Source: Candidatus Raymondbacteria bacterium RIFOXYA2_FULL_49_16
GTDB taxonomy: Bacteria > Fibrobacterota > OXYB2-FULL-49-7 > XYB2-FULL-49-35
Length of the DNA: 23,978 nucleotides
Direction of reading: 5' to 3'
NCBI GenBank assembly: GCA_001789205.1
Contig: MFYT01000101.1
Span: 1 to 23,978, forward strand
Shown here: positions 14,986 to 23,888 of the stretch, one piece after another
How the letters are laid out: the number at the start of each line of letters is the position of its first letter
Position numbering within the stretch: the first letter of the stretch is position 1
The notes under the pieces: generated by a model
Seen by the model: only the letters and a program-made list of their open reading frames with translations
Databases searched by the model: none
Told to the model about the DNA's origin: nothing
Made by a program: the position numbers and the translations under genes

Positions 14986-15918
14986 TTATTGGAACACCGT
15001 CATCCGTTTCTCAACAAGCGCGGCCATTGTCTGTTTAAGGTCCGGCGCCAGGAACGAATCCTCAATGCATTCCTTCATCCGCGGCAAAGCAACACAAAGC
15101 TGCCTGTACATCGCGTCACGCTGGCGAACAGAAAGCTCAAGCGATCCGGCCAGCGCATTGAAGTCCGCGCGTACCAAACCCGATTTTTTTCCATTGATAG
15201 TCAGCGCGGTCTCCTCCCTGTCTTCAGGCATGGCCAGGACCGTGGAGACCAGATCGTATGCAGGGCTTAACCTGATACCCTGGGGTGACTGTATCAGGGA
15301 ATAATTCTTAAGATGCATGTCCGCGTTTCCAGATACGAAAGAAAAGACCGCCCTTAAAAATAAATCGAGCGCATCAATGCCGGGATATACGCTGTAGCGC
15401 CGGAGCAGCCTTCCTACCCGTTCGACCGAGCCCTTGTACTTGTCTTCCGTCAGCCGTTCCGATACCTGGCACAGGTCTTCCATTGCCGTCTTTGCACCTG
15501 TTTTGTCCCTGTCGATCCTGCGGCTGATAAAACAGAGTTCTCTGGAACCAAGCCGGACTAGCCCGCAAGGGACAATGGGTATGCCTGCCAGCGCGGCGCA
15601 GCGCATGACTAATTCTTCGTTCTCAGGTAAACAAGGATACTCCTCAACCGGCGGTTTAAGGACAAAACGGCCCCACATTCCCACAATGGTGAAACGTGAC
15701 CGCCCGCCTTTTTTCTCAATACCAAGCGAAAGTTTTTTCTGGACACCGGTCACGGAAATGCGGTTGAGTACATTATATGCGGCGTATTCTTTGAGTTTTT
15801 CGAGAGTAAGGTCCATTTCCGGCACTGGTGAGGAATCGAAAAATGCTTTACTGCATGGAGCATGATAATCCGTGCCGGGGTCCAATTCCTTACGGCACAA
15901 AAGGCATTGATTACGCAT
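14986..15918 (-). CDS. HipT-like serine/threonine kinase toxin (HipBST system)
   Basis: HipA-fold kinase lacking the N-terminal HipA subdomain, as in the tripartite HipBST system where HipT phosphorylates an aminoacyl-tRNA synthetase (TrpS in E. coli). Seen: an N-terminal zinc-knuckle-like Cys5/Cys8/His19/Cys22; a Gly-rich loop SVTG at 55-58, equivalent to the autophosphorylated S-x-S loop of HipT, here Ser55 and Thr57; ATP-binding Lys88 (RFVLKPP); catalytic GNADMHLKN with Asp200; and metal-binding Asp222 (SPAYDLVS). All kinase residues are intact, so the toxin should be active. Length 310 aa. The ATG overlaps the hipS-like stop by 8 nt, with GGAGG just upstream. The target here is unknown. 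Confidence 0.88.
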   Translation of the reverse strand: MRNQCLLCRKELDPGTDYHAPCSKAFFDSSPVPEMDLTLEKLKEYAAYNVLNRISVTGVQKKLSLGIEKKGGRSRFTIVGMWGRFVLKPPVEEYPCLPENEELVMRCAALAGIPIVPCGLVRLGSRELCFISRRIDRDKTGAKTAMEDLCQVSERLTEDKYKGSVERVGRLLRRYSVYPGIDALDLFLRAVFSFVSGNADMHLKNYSLIQSPQGIRLSPAYDLVSTVLAMPEDREETALTINGKKSGLVRADFNALAGSLELSVRQRDAMYRQLCVALPRMKECIEDSFLAPDLKQTMAALVEKRMTVFQ

Positions 15919-16234
15919 TGCCGCCCTCCACGCGTACCGCGCCTATGCAGTCCCGGCATACGGTAAGCAAAAGGCCCATCCGGTCTTTTTCATCCAGTTT
16001 CCAGTTTCGTGCGGTAATGGACAGAAGCCATCCTTCGGGAATTAAGCCGTCAAAAAAGGGAATCATGGTCTTTGATTCGTACGGCTCGTTCCGGAGGGGA
16101 AGGGTGACGCTGACAGGTTCAGCGTCCGGCAGGCCAAGATATGCCTGATCGTATGAAAAATAATATCCGGCATCAGACTCCCCGATGATACCCGCGAAAC
16201 GGGACTTGACGTAGACCTTACCGCGCCGCATCAT
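15911..16234 (-). CDS. HipS-like antitoxin (HipA N-terminal subdomain as separate protein)
   Basis: A 107-aa protein corresponding to the N-subdomain 1 of HipA, made as a separate polypeptide; in HipBST this subunit (HipS) neutralises HipT. Family features: VYVKSRFAGIIGES and YLGLPDAEPVSVTLPLR near the N-terminus, the conserved PFFDGLIPEGWLL at 59-71 (HipA proteins have FxNLLPEG) and CIGAV at 96-100 (matching GxxxIGAV). The start MM is inside the last codons of the hipB-like gene (17-nt overlap), with AAAGGA about 8 nt upstream. It is a true separate gene, not a frameshifted HipA: both junctions have their own start codons and ribosome binding sites, and the kinase gene is in another frame. 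Confidence 0.88.
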   Translation of the reverse strand: MMRRGKVYVKSRFAGIIGESDAGYYFSYDQAYLGLPDAEPVSVTLPLRNEPYESKTMIPFFDGLIPEGWLLSITARNWKLDEKDRMGLLLTVCRDCIGAVRVEGGNA

Positions 16235-16451
16235 CTTCGATTTCCTTTATAGAAAGCGGGCCGGCGCTATGTCCAAAAAGTCCAAGGATCTGGTTGAGTC
16301 TGTCAAGACGGATGGTTTTTTTCCCCTGTTCAACATCACGGACAAAACGGAGGCCGACCCCTGCTTTGACTGCCAGCTCAACTTGGGTCAGGTGCAGTTC
16401 CTTCCGCTTTTCTTTTAAAAATTGTGAAAAAACATTTCGTTTTTTATTCAT
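16218..16451 (-). CDS. HipB-like HTH regulator
   Basis: A 77-aa Xre/Cro-family DNA-binding protein heading the hipBST-like operon. The helix-turn-helix covers about residues 21-44 (LTQVELAVKAGVGLRFVRDV then EQGK), with the EQGKKTIRLDRLNQILGLFG segment typical of HipB. It would repress its own promoter through the three palindromes upstream, as HipB does in E. coli. The ribosome binding site AAAAGG, 6 nt before the ATG, is itself part of the first palindrome. The downstream hipS- and hipT-like genes overlap in series, which argues for a fixed ratio of all three products. Confidence 0.9.
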   Translation of the reverse strand: MNKKRNVFSQFLKEKRKELHLTQVELAVKAGVGLRFVRDVEQGKKTIRLDRLNQILGLFGHSAGPLSIKEIEDDAAR

Positions 16452-20935: not shown

Positions 20936-21246
20936 CGTCCGGATTGGAACTCCCTGTCAAGAAAAATAGTCTCTTCTTGTCGAGAAACCAAGAAAATAAT
21001 GGGCTCCGCCAGCATGGTAAGCGTGAGCCTTCAATCATCGTATGATGGGGGATCCCCGAGTCCGCGTAGTATCGACCCCATTCTCGATCCTCGGTCCTGA
21101 CCATGGGTCTGTCTTGCGGCATTTCACACCCCTTCATCAGCGCAAAGGTAGCATGCTGTCCTAGGGTACTGGCAGGAACATGCCAGGTATTGTCTAATGT
21201 CAATACCGCTTGATGTGTTGCAAGTCATTGTCAACACATATATTTA
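20936..21246. other. Intergenic stretch before the cassette-like region
   Basis: I see no credible gene in these roughly 310 bp. A weak possible promoter for the lipoprotein (TTGGTT, 17 bp, TATTTT on the minus strand) lies just upstream of its start. The rest has no terminator, tRNA or clear repeat. Its base composition changes toward AT-rich near 21200, where the accessory region begins. Confidence 0.4.
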
Positions 21247-21263
21247 CGCGACTTCGTGTCGCG
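21247..21263. other. Hairpin at the edge of repeat copy A
   Basis: CGCGAC (21247-21252) and GTCGCG (21258-21263) form a perfect 6-bp stem with a TTCGT loop, 9 bp from repeat copy A. It lies downstream of the minus-strand rhuM-like gene and could help end its transcript, though no good T-tract follows. Confidence 0.4.
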
Positions 21264-21272
21264 ACCAACCAA

Positions 21273-21338
21273 CAACGCCGGTAACCTGTGCGCCTCAGGC
21301 GCATCAGGTTGAGCGGCAATGTTGCCTTGCGCTAGGGC
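21273..21338. repeat. Imperfect palindromic repeat, copy A (attC-like)
   Basis: Nested arms pair in order: CAAC 21273-21276 with GTTG 21321-21324; GCCG 21277-21280 with CGGC 21314-21317; ACCTG 21284-21288 with CAGGT 21305-21309; TGCGCC 21289-21294 with GGCGCA 21298-21303. T21304 is unpaired. The right arm (21304-21331) is identical to copy C and one base different from copy B. Small internal loops lie between the arm boxes. The layout of outer and inner boxes with an extrahelical base and a variable tip resembles integron attC sites, though the GTTRRRY end is imperfect here. Confidence 0.75.
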
Positions 21339-21384
21339 CATAAGGTACACCTCACAAGAAACGTCAAGATATTTCATGGTTTTT

Positions 21385-22416
21385 TTATGTGCCTTCCTTT
21401 TCATGCTTACCCGTGATCTTTTTGATTTCTTTGTCAAAATCGGAGATGTAGTTTTTGTCCTGCTCTTTCCTGAATATTTCATATTCCTTACTTGCCAGCG
21501 CGAGGGCGACTTCATGGCTGATTGAACCGGCATTTGTAAGAATTTCATACTCACTGAACTTCAGAAAAGCATTCAATTTATCTGTCCAGTCTTTCATGTA
21601 CATGGCCCTGTTCCGGATTGCCTGTATTTCCGCATAGTCTAAATACATGCTGACAACGCGGTTTAAATGGTCGAGTTCACCTTTGTTCAAATAATTTTTT
21701 GCAATCGCCACATCACTTGTCATAATTTTGCTTCCGGTCCCTTTCCGCCATGATGTAAGACCCATGTTTGGCTTTGCATGATTGGCGCGGGAGGCGACTA
21801 TTTCAGCGGCGGTTTGTCCGGTGATGGCAAAATGCAGTTTATTTTGGACTGTAGCGAAGAACTCCTTTGTAATATCAGCCTTGGGGGAGTAATCAATGGA
21901 TGTGGCGTAGAGATCGGTGATTTTCTGATACGCCATTCGTTCGCTGGAACGGATGTCCCGGATTTCTTCCAGCAAATCGTCAAAAAACCGGGCACTGAAG
22001 CGAGACCCATACTTAAAACGGTCGCTATCGATTGCAAAACCCTTGTGGATATACTGTTGTAGAATGGTCGTTGCCCATTGGCGGAACTGGGTGCCTCGTT
22101 CAGAATTGACTCGGTATCCTACGGCTATGATGGCTTCCAATGAATAACAGAACACCTTTCTCGCGATTTCTCTTTCTCCCTCTTTTTGAACTACCGAGAA
22201 TTCCTCGGTAGTTGCCGCTTCATCGAGTTCGTGCTCCTTGAAAATATTTTTAAGGTGCAGAGAGATATTATCGGCAGTGCATCCAAATAGTTCCGCCATG
22301 CGTTTTTGTGAAAGCCAAATGTTTTCCTTCGCATAAAGCACTTCGATATTGATTTTCCCGTCAGGAGTTTGATAAACGGTAATTTGATTGTCCGGTAGTT
22401 TTTTAGTTTTTGCCAT
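21385..22416 (-). CDS. RhuM-family (virulence-associated) protein
   Basis: A 343-aa protein of the RhuM family, common on islands and beside toxin-antitoxin or restriction genes; its biochemical function is unknown. Typical segments: ITVYQTPDGKINIEVLYAKE, then NIWLSQKRMAELFGCTADNI (an HTH-like segment, about 25-58), REIARKVFCYSLEAIIAVGYR and NSERGTQFRQWAT (about 85-117). The C-terminal helical half (KADITKEFFATVQNKLHFAI; SDVAIAKNYLNKGELDHLNR) continues to a charged tail. Length is normal for the family and the frame is intact. The ribosome binding site is weak (GGGAAAACC). It lies between repeat copies A and B and is clearly more AT-rich than the flagellar and mannosidase genes, consistent with acquisition by transfer. 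Confidence 0.9.
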   Translation of the reverse strand: MAKTKKLPDNQITVYQTPDGKINIEVLYAKENIWLSQKRMAELFGCTADNISLHLKNIFKEHELDEAATTEEFSVVQKEGEREIARKVFCYSLEAIIAVGYRVNSERGTQFRQWATTILQQYIHKGFAIDSDRFKYGSRFSARFFDDLLEEIRDIRSSERMAYQKITDLYATSIDYSPKADITKEFFATVQNKLHFAITGQTAAEIVASRANHAKPNMGLTSWRKGTGSKIMTSDVAIAKNYLNKGELDHLNRVVSMYLDYAEIQAIRNRAMYMKDWTDKLNAFLKFSEYEILTNAGSISHEVALALASKEYEIFRKEQDKNYISDFDKEIKKITGKHEKEGT

Positions 22417-22778
22417 GGTTTTCCCGGTGATTCATGAGTTTTAAGCCTTCCAATTATATAAGTAAGTCATTGATATAATATAAGATATGGAATTAAGTGC
22501 TTTCCATACCTCTTTTCTATTAAATAAAAAACTAACCCTATTACAGGTGAGATATTCTTTGATGTCCAGTATTTTTGTCAGCATTTTCAATCCATGTCCG
22601 CACCGTTTCTCAAGTTCGCGATCGGTTCTGGAGCCCCAGTGCCAAACCGTGGCGCCTGCCCTGAGCCTTGCCGAAGGGTCAGGTTGAGCGGCAATGTTGC
22701 TTTGCGCTGGGGCTCATTCATAATAATCCTAACCATTTAATCCCCAGTGTCAGAGTGTTTTCTCCCGTGTGCCTTTTA
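22417..22778. other. Intergenic region between rhuM-like and NTase genes
   Basis: These 362 bp hold the upstream region of the minus-strand rhuM-like gene, with a TATAAT at about 22455-22460 (minus strand) but no good -35, and repeat copy B (22631-22715). A plus-strand reading frame here ends in the peptide PALSLAEGSG, a known by-product of translating a widespread palindromic repeat, and is not a gene. Confidence 0.5.
22631..22715. repeat. Imperfect palindromic repeat, copy B (attC-like)
   Basis: The outer arms GAGCCCCAG (22631-22639) and CTGGGGCTC (22707-22715) are perfect complements. The inner arms CCTG (22655-22658)/CAGG (22680-22683) and CCCT (22659-22662)/AGGG (22675-22678) pair with T22679 left out, the same unpaired base as in copies A and C. 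The conserved arm (22679-22706) differs from copies A and C at one position. The tip (22659-22678) resembles the palindrome CCCTGAGCTTGTCGAAGGG that is scattered through many bacterial genomes. Confidence 0.75.
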
Positions 22779-23333
22779 TTACTTCTCTTTTTTTTGTTCC
22801 AAAAGTCTGCGTTCAAATTCTTTAAGTTTTTCAGGCCGTTTTTCACGCTCCGCCCATTTTCGAATATTATCCATATCCACTTCGTTCATCTGGCAGATCA
22901 TGATGGCTTGCTCAAGACATTGCGCATCGTTCGCATGAAAGTAACTTGTGAGGCGGTCTTTGGCGGAATCCGTAGCCGAGAGCAGGGAAAGGCTGCCGGT
23001 CTTGAATTTCAGTTCAACAGGCTTAATTTTAAGTTCTTCCCCAATTCCAAGCGGGCCAGGCGGAAATTCGACGGAATAAACGACGGATTTGTTTATATAT
23101 ATTCTTCCAGTCTTATTGAACCCAAGTTCGGACATGACCCGGTCAATGACTTTTTGGTTCTCGCTCAGGACATAATTTACCACAAAATCGAGATCGCCAG
23201 TCACATATTTATTGTTGCTATAAATTTCTACGCAAGCCCCTCCGGAAAGGGTGGCTTTCAGTCCTTCTTTCGACAAAGCTTCACAAATGATAGCTGCAAG
23301 TTCTCCAATTGAAAGGGTGCTTAAATCATTCAT
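22779..23333 (-). CDS. Nucleotidyltransferase-fold protein (AbiEii-like), TA pair
   Basis: A 184-aa protein with a minimal nucleotidyltransferase fold: GG at 31-32 followed by the metal-binding D47-x-D49 (SGGACVEIYSNNKYVTGDLD), then a strand with VELKFKTGSLSLL and the helical signature LLSATDSAKDRLTSYFHAND (about 117-136). Proteins of this type (AbiEii/MenT-like) act as toxins that modify tRNA or other targets when paired with a winged-helix antitoxin. Its start overlaps the stop of the upstream winged-helix gene by 4 nt (ATGA), with AAAGGTGG as ribosome binding site. The C-terminal tail is very charged (EKRPEKLKEFERRLLEQKKEK). Whether it is toxic or housekeeping cannot be told from sequence. 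Confidence 0.8.
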   Translation of the reverse strand: MNDLSTLSIGELAAIICEALSKEGLKATLSGGACVEIYSNNKYVTGDLDFVVNYVLSENQKVIDRVMSELGFNKTGRIYINKSVVYSVEFPPGPLGIGEELKIKPVELKFKTGSLSLLSATDSAKDRLTSYFHANDAQCLEQAIMICQMNEVDMDNIRKWAEREKRPEKLKEFERRLLEQKKEK

Positions 23334-23695
23334 GTGCCACCTTTTTTCTCAAGGTCTTCCAGAAGAATGACAGGCTTGCCCTTTGCCCTGGGTCTGCGCC
23401 GGTTGAAAAGGAGTTTTTGCTTCAAATCAGGAGGATATGCATCAATGGCTTTGAGCAGCAATGCGGATAATTCCTTCCGCAGATAAAATCTGGGATTCAT
23501 CTGGTATGCTATTGTACGGCCATACGGTTTGGAAATCAGCACACCATCAGCCTCCAAACGATTCAGTTCCCGTTTGATTGGGCGATCCGGACATTTCCAG
23601 AATTCGGTTATTTCCGCGGCGTATCCTTCTTCCCTTGCCGCAATAAAGACGAGTATGCGTTCTCTGCTGAGCGAACCCAATAGAGTTTTTAACAT
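23330..23695 (-). CDS. Winged-helix regulator/antitoxin paired with the NTase
   Basis: A 121-aa protein with an ArsR-like winged helix in its first 80 residues (SLSRERILVFIAAREEGYAA; KCPDRPIKRELNRLEADGVL as recognition helix; SKPYGRTIAYQMNP as wing). A basic tail follows (KLLFNRRRPRAKGKPVILLE). It overlaps the nucleotidyltransferase-fold gene by 4 nt and lies upstream of it, the usual order for antitoxin/regulator then toxin. AGAGGG is 4 nt before the ATG. A 12-bp perfect palindrome at the predicted transcription start suggests self-repression. Confidence 0.82.
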   Translation of the reverse strand: MLKTLLGSLSRERILVFIAAREEGYAAEITEFWKCPDRPIKRELNRLEADGVLISKPYGRTIAYQMNPRFYLRKELSALLLKAIDAYPPDLKQKLLFNRRRPRAKGKPVILLEDLEKKGGT

Positions 23696-23742
23696 ATAGC
23701 CCTCTAGTTCTCAAAAGACTGTCTTGTAAGGGTTAATTATTG

Positions 23743-23754
23743 ACCCATATGGGT
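23743..23754. promoter_or_regulatory. Candidate autoregulatory operator of the wHTH-NTase pair
   Basis: A perfect 12-bp palindrome ACCCATATGGGT sits on the predicted transcription start of the pair. A further half-site GGGTTA lies at 23730-23735. The palindrome is the right size for a dimeric winged-helix protein. Binding by the encoded regulator is inferred. Confidence 0.6.
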
Positions 23755-23757
23755 TAT

Positions 23758-23786
23758 AATATAACTTATTCTTCGCTCAAGTTCAA
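23758..23786 (-). promoter_or_regulatory. Promoter of the wHTH-NTase pair
   Basis: On the minus strand TTGAAC (23781-23786) and TATATT (23758-23763) are separated by exactly 17 bp; four of six and five of six bases match the sigma-70 consensus. The start would be near 23751, inside the palindromic operator, giving a leader of about 55 nt. The -35 lies at the end of repeat copy C, so the repeat itself supplies part of the promoter. Confidence 0.6.
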
Positions 23787-23888
23787 CGTCAGGCCGGTAA
23801 CCTGCGCGTGACAACCAATTCTAAACCCTTTCTGGAACCTTGGTTCCCTATAACATGGCGTCAGGTTGAGCGGCAATGTTGCCTTGCG
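23784..23888. repeat. Imperfect palindromic repeat, copy C (attC-like)
   Basis: Arms pair as in copy A: CAAC 23784-23787 with GTTG 23878-23881; GCCG 23793-23796 with CGGC 23871-23874; ACCTG 23800-23804 with CAGGT 23862-23866; CGC 23805-23807 with GCG 23858-23860. T23861 is unpaired. The tip is a 50-nt insert with its own perfect hairpin (GGAACC 23834-23839, GGTTCC 23842-23847). Box GTTCAAC (23781-23787) fits the attC RYYYAAC consensus exactly, and its complement fits GTTRRRY. The 28-nt right arm (23861-23888) is identical to copy A. Confidence 0.75.

Follow-up and report, generated by a model that had tools for sequence, protein, structure and literature searches.

The 23,978-base window analysed here is the whole of one contig (C101) of Candidatus Raymondbacteria bacterium RIFOXYA2_FULL_49_16, whose genome is 5.43 Mb in 112 contigs, in an assembly rated 100% complete. 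Toward its right-hand end lie three folded repeats, copies A, B, and C, which an original prediction had read as attC-like sites bounding a possible gene-cassette array. The genes between them are all on the minus strand and, as that prediction had it, form a RhuM-like unit and a unit of a winged helix-turn-helix (wHTH) protein with a nucleotidyltransferase (NTase)-like protein. The features, with sites described by their attC boxes (R'', L'', L', and R') and extrahelical bases given for the bottom strand, are as follows.

23785..23886, minus strand: attC copy C, recognised by fold, known-attC model, repeat model, and attC grammar; R'' CAAGGCAAC at 23886-23878, extrahelical G at 23868 and T at 23861, tip of about 48 to 50 nt, L' CAGGTT at 23804-23799, R' GTT at 23787-23785.
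22647..23786, minus strand: putative cassette 1 (1140 bp), wHTH and NTase-like genes plus copy B; limits inferred from the attC crossover rule.
23695-23330, minus strand: wHTH protein (PADLOC PDC-M05A, 3.8e-9).
23333-22779, minus strand: NTase-like protein, with a GG..DLD-type motif in the sequence and a weak DUF2204 match.
22645..22704, minus strand: attC copy B, recognised by fold and repeat model; R'' CAAAGCAAC at 22704-22696, extrahelical G at 22686 and T at 22679, tip CCCTTCGGCAAGGCTCAGGG, degenerate L' CAGGCG at 22658-22653, R' GTT at 22647-22645.
21276..22646, minus strand: putative cassette 2 (1371 bp), RhuM-family gene plus copy A; limits inferred by the same rule.
22416-21385, minus strand: RhuM-family protein (PF13310, 1.1e-106; PADLOC PDC-S05).
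21329..21389, minus strand: leader upstream of copy A, starting at the RhuM stop codon and common to copies on contigs C23, C33, and C21 and to a half site on C107.
21274..21329, minus strand: attC copy A, recognised by fold, known-attC model, repeat model, and attC grammar; R'' CAAGGCAAC at 21329-21321, extrahelical G at 21311 and T at 21304, tip of 15 nt, L' CAGGTT at 21288-21283, R' GTT at 21276-21274.
21054..21269, minus strand: truncated group II intron (5' part), lying immediately after copy A on its downstream side and in cassette orientation.

The three repeats lie where they had been placed and share a 28-nt arm with at most one mismatch. On the gene strand each has AAC (R'') on one side and GTT (R') on the other, with, between them and in this order, an L'' box, a tip that varies from copy to copy, and an L' box that matches L'', and the family reads CAARGCAAC-ATTGCCG-CT[C]AACCTG[A]-tip-CAGGTTA.CGGC-(0-6 nt)-GTTG, where the bracketed C and A are the extrahelical bases; the right arm of copy B is degenerate. 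The conserved arm is the R''-L'' half of the site. The original prediction had taken it for the R' half, and because of this it saw an exact box only in copy C and conservation running beyond the expected crossover, two objections that disappear once the boxes are read in the right direction: the supposed R' box (GTTGAGC) lies inside L'', the true R' is the GTT on the variable side, and pairwise comparison shows homology among copies on the R' side ending right after GTTGTT, where the attC crossover (G^TT) is expected.

Conservation among published attC sites is limited to the AAC of R'' and the GTT of R'; G usually follows the bottom-strand AAC of R', and the bottom strand carries its extrahelical bases in the R'' arm, G within L'' and T 6 to 8 nt nearer the tip (PMC2727003). 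All ten copies that we located in the genome carry both AAC and GTT, and G follows the bottom-strand AAC in nine of them, copy B being the exception. The extrahelical G and T stand 7 positions apart in the R'' arm, within the published range at copies A, B, and C, and the T is kept in 9/10 genome copies (C in the C107 copy). That the same T is unpaired in all three window repeats was borne out directly at 21304 and 23861; at 22679 it holds only in the register common to the ten genome copies, since the minimum-energy fold of copy B pairs the tip slightly differently. Plus-strand folds of copies A and B were well beyond those of shuffled sequences (z = −3.9 with 0/200 shuffles as good and z = −4.4 with 1/200, respectively), that of copy C being weaker (z = −1.7, 9/200). 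A grammar written from known sites matched copies A and C on the gene strand and gave one chance match on the other strand, against an expectation of 0.15 matches per strand in mononucleotide-shuffled windows.

Further copies of the arm, the search for which the original prediction had recommended, were found on C21, C23, C33, and C107. The genome contains five mismatch-free occurrences of the 21-nt arm core, of which three are in the window, one is on C21, and one is on C23; on C33 and C107 the core has one or two mismatches. Allowing up to three mismatches, eight places were matched compared to none for a reversed control pattern. One of these arm matches, on C56 (three mismatches), lacks the attC right half and was set aside. 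A covariance model trained on eight of the repeats with shortened tips gave scores over 40 bits at ten genome sites: C21 and C1 have two each (those of C1 being outside the training set), C23, C33, and C107 one each, and the window three. The sites are thus spread over six contigs, with array-like series of units in the window and on C1. Two other model matches, C21:225 (L019:225-291) and C65:6731 (L114:6731-6797), proved to belong to a different dispersed repeat, CGCAAGGCAACAG...CTCTTGCTGACRCGGGTGAAGCCGCGCAGCAAAGC, which lacks the attC arms and has only its CGCAAGGCAACA start in common with the attC family.

Across the ten sites, 89% of the cells were paired versus 78% after shuffling, 17 cells showed double changes versus 5.9, and the covariation score was 0.289 versus 0.112, values reached by 0/500 shuffles in each case; because the alignment was fitted to the model, these figures lean towards structure. 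Slid controls, which paired 31 to 42%, led to the same conclusion, and clear compensations were present at the C1 sites (GCCAAT/ATTGGC and GCCGTT/AACGGC).

A second covariance model was built by us (it is not that of IntegronFinder) from 11 known attC sites, namely class 1 cassettes of plasmid records together with sites linked to IntI in two genomes from the same phylum, with long tips shortened to 15 nt and with filters off for the window search. In the window it ranked copy A first (minus strand, 23.5 bits, E = 6.5e-4). The scores of the copies on C21 (26.8 bits) and C23 (24.5 bits) fall within the span given by genuine attC sites that had been kept out of the training set (dfrA1, 21.9; blaOXA-21, 24.6; dfrA15, 42.2 bits), and the only matches in the whole genome at E < 0.05 were the two C1 sites and the C21 copy, all members of this repeat family. 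The window had no Rfam match at the gathering score, IMG/VR gave no match, and the three matches to the arm pattern among GTDB genome contigs all fell within one conserved Sulfurospirillum coding region and are not attC. A coding reading of the repeat (QGNIAAQPD...) fails as a general explanation, as the C23 and C21 leaders shift the frame and stops follow in several copies.

By the crossover rule, the exchanges would fall at 23787/23786, at 22647/22646, and just after 21276, which would delimit the two cassettes listed above. The wHTH and NTase-like pair and the RhuM-family gene are of kinds that occur in toxin-antitoxin systems or among candidate defence genes. Copy B forms an additional outer stem, GAGCCCCAG/CTGGGGCTC (window 22635-22715), in which the end of cassette 1 pairs with the start of cassette 2 across the predicted crossover.

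Group II intron sequences accompany the sites. The fragment after copy A matches RF02012 at 21.4 bits, below gathering, and is 90% identical over 147 nt to a complete intron on C1, which immediately follows an attC site (6040-5973), matches RF02012 (82.6 bits) and RF00029 (65.6 bits), and encodes a maturase above the TIGR04416 cut-off (351 bits). The C1 intron begins at GCGTTGT/TCGCGACACG, that is, at a TTGT/T position, the point at which group IIC-attC introns, proposed helpers of cassette formation, insert into attC (PMC7923331). The 5' part of the intron occurs at only two places in the genome, C1 and copy A, each time right after an attC, and a third group II intron fragment follows the attC half site on C107.

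These data bear on the alternative raised in the original prediction, an undescribed modular repeat, which could be a palindromic miniature inverted-repeat transposable element, a repetitive extragenic palindrome-like sequence, or a terminator, lying after genes by chance or for termination. The dispersal over six contigs, the noncanonical R boxes, and homology upstream of R'' would all suit such an element, as would the tip CCCTTCGRCAAGGCTCAGGG of copy B, which resembles a palindrome widespread in many bacteria. A model made from attC sites alone, however, matches the repeats on the right strand, both extrahelical bases sit at the published spacing, the right boundary is sharp at GTT, a group II intron has inserted after attC, and the units form two array-like series, so that we consider a modular repeat very improbable. 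The CCCTTCGRCAAGGCTCAGGG tip of copy B (window 22653-22688) recurs in the C33 site (L021:1000-1040), and in both sites one palindrome seems to be nested within the tip of a second.

The upstream homology runs for 46 to 60 nt in the C21, C23, and C33 copies, copy A, and the C107 half site, and for about 180 nt in two of the leader-bearing copies. The genes ahead of this common leader are unrelated: RhuM at copy A, a Gp49-type toxin with a helix-turn-helix (HTH) protein on C23, and an FRG/phosphoribosyltransferase (PRTase)/YspA-like group on C21. The cargo at the sites comprises RhuM, the Gp49 and HTH pair, FRG, and a PsyrT/ShosT-like phosphoribosyltransferase. Two half attC sites, on C107 (L022:3406-3463) and C21 (L019:10336-10379), consist of the leader and R'' to about CAAGGC(AAC); the first then joins a group II maturase gene midway along it, and the second joins an apparent insertion sequence end. 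Conceivably, although we give the idea little credence, a leader-attC module was carried to positions behind new genes, perhaps with a group IIC intron as its vehicle, and the leader and the abutting intron pieces would record the joining. If true, this would be a visible step in the formation of gene cassettes.

We conclude that the locus is a cluster of attC sites lacking an integron integrase (CALIN) and represents the remnant, or an assembly-separated end, of a chromosomal integron, a reading to which we assign a probability of about 0.9. A CALIN is defined by IntegronFinder as two or more attC sites with no integrase (PMC9024848), and here three sites lie in 2.6 kb in a genome with no integron integrase (IntI) above cut-off, an assignment qualified by the contig end; since no IntI was found in the assembled genome, the cluster is classed as a CALIN and not as a complete integron. 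The gene-cassette array proposed in the original prediction is thus supported by site geometry, attC-model matches, covariation, cassette orientation, cargo, and the group II intron. The end of homology past GTTGTT and the presence of IntI-linked attC arrays elsewhere in the phylum also count in its favour.

Several observations weigh against this conclusion. In most copies the R boxes do not follow RYYYAAC/GTTRRRY, the R'' CAARGCAAC misfitting RYYYAAC, although copy C has an R' that fits GTTRRRY (GTTGAAC); this lack of the full core consensus was not counted as excluding attC because only AAC and GTT are conserved (PMC2727003). The L'-R' spacer varies from 5 to 10 nt. With the known-attC model, copy C is second in the window with a low score (9.2 bits, not significant alone) and copy B was missed in the window search. 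Typical group IIC-attC introns are inserted in the bottom strand, opposite to the cassettes (PMC7923331), and those of C1 and the window atypically share the cassette strand. The genome is the only member of its taxonomic family among those compared, with no close relative in which cassette gain or loss could be followed.

Also to be set on that side is the integrase itself. None was visible in the window to the original prediction, and none exceeds the curated cut-off (265 bits) in the assembled genome. The best-scoring recombinases (219 bits for C26 and 212 for C109, as whole proteins) lack the IntI-specific insert:

C26 (L024:11271-12413): integrase-like tyrosine recombinase, below the integron integrase cut-off.
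C109 (L025:10804-11604): integrase-like tyrosine recombinase, below the integron integrase cut-off.

IntI profile positions 181-234 are unmatched in both proteins, that of C109 having about 24 residues where IntI4 has 66, and neither attI nor attC was seen beside these genes at the C26 and C109 contig ends. The arrangement that marks a complete integron, an intI with the insert beside attI, was accordingly not found. Either protein might nonetheless serve the sites without being a true IntI: compared with XerA, the integron integrase model fits the C26 protein almost as well and the C109 protein better, both score above the XerC and XerD models, and the best PDB match of the C109 protein is the IntI4 of an attC complex. 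We hold this to be very improbable, as the insert that is the mark of integron integrases is missing, no attC lies near the two genes in the sequence examined, and similar partial matches in other genomes of the phylum look like general recombinases.

A complete integron whose intI falls in an unassembled gap is a different matter, which we regard as unlikely but worth serious thought. The window being a whole contig, the array breaks off on the side where the integrase would lie; the contig ends 92 bases past the R'' box of copy C, and contig C21 begins inside an attC. Near-identical attC sites break assemblies, which would explain why a contig ends in the array, and in draft assemblies integrons can end up divided into CALINs, the counts of which are thereby inflated (PMC9024848). 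Copy A is identical to the C21 copy over 63 nt; this identity between different contigs suggests recent spread and activity, hence an integrase perhaps recently lost or unassembled. Against a missing integrase end stands the completeness of the assembly, which in its 112 contigs yields no IntI above cut-off.

For the CALIN, the cassettes most likely travelled through the action of an integrase that recombined the folded bottom strands. The plus strand, which is the attC bottom strand, would when single stranded fold into an attC hairpin at each repeat. The two extrahelical bases, G and T, would be read by an integron integrase supplied in trans or once encoded at the locus, whose cut would separate AA from C in the bottom-strand R' box (G^TT when written for the gene strand) and would let the stretch from one site to the next leave or enter as a cassette.

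Outside the cassette array, at 14986-16400 on the minus strand, two adjacent open reading frames (ORFs) together make up a HipA, consistent with a split HipBA-type toxin-antitoxin module. The HipA_C domain is on 14986-15918, a short ORF lies upstream at 15911-16234, and an HTH protein starts just upstream.

At the phylum level, a true IntI over the cut-off was found in five of 60 genomes (G004, G006, G018, G054, and G057), several of which have canonical attC arrays beside it (L049-L054), with some sites of about 130 to 160 bp. One family of the phylum carries about 10 to 90 Fib_succ_major domains per genome, in keeping with Fibrobacterota. In 59 relatives the repeat type was not found except for one weak match. 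The open literature searched yielded no paper on integrons of this lineage (Fibrobacterota), to which the present data add an integrase-less set of at least 10 attC sites, a fairly ordinary find in an uncommon host. What is unusual is the noncanonical R boxes and the 46- to 60-nt leader preceding attC sites behind unrelated genes. The former show that attC sites with noncanonical core boxes can be recognised by extrahelical-base geometry, and the common leader with the adjacent group II intron pieces offers a natural case for how attC sites become attached to genes.

Set beside the attC sites of class 1 cassettes (aadA1, aadB, and aac(6')-IIa), which are about 60 bp long, copy A agrees in total size and in layout: AAC, 8 to 9 nt, an extrahelical C (gene strand), a 6-nt L box, an extrahelical A, a tip of about 15 nt, the L' box, and GTT. 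Class 1 aadA1 reads AAC-AATTCGTT-[C]AAGCCG[A], the window sites having one base more between AAC and the extrahelical C, and they differ further in their cores, CAARGCAAC/GTTG instead of RYYYAAC/GTTRRRY, and in an R-L spacer that is partly paired. The integrons of the five IntI-bearing genomes share the extrahelical attC geometry but have a true IntI and canonical TAAC/GTTA cores; G007 and G055, of the same phylum, have attC sites with the same L-box letters (AACCTGA...CAGGTTAA) and canonical AAC/GTT cores. Like group IIC-attC introns of the S.ma.I2 type, the intron here starts right after the attC stem-loop at TTGT/T, matches RF02012, and has a maturase over the cut-off; unlike them, this putative member of the subclass lies on the top strand in cassette orientation. 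The integrase-less array of Halorhodospira halochloris (PMC7923331) is alike in its attC cluster, the absence of intI from the genome, a truncated group II intron, and toxin-antitoxin-type cargo; the present case differs in its host phylum, in the distribution of the sites over six contigs, and in the shortness of its arrays.

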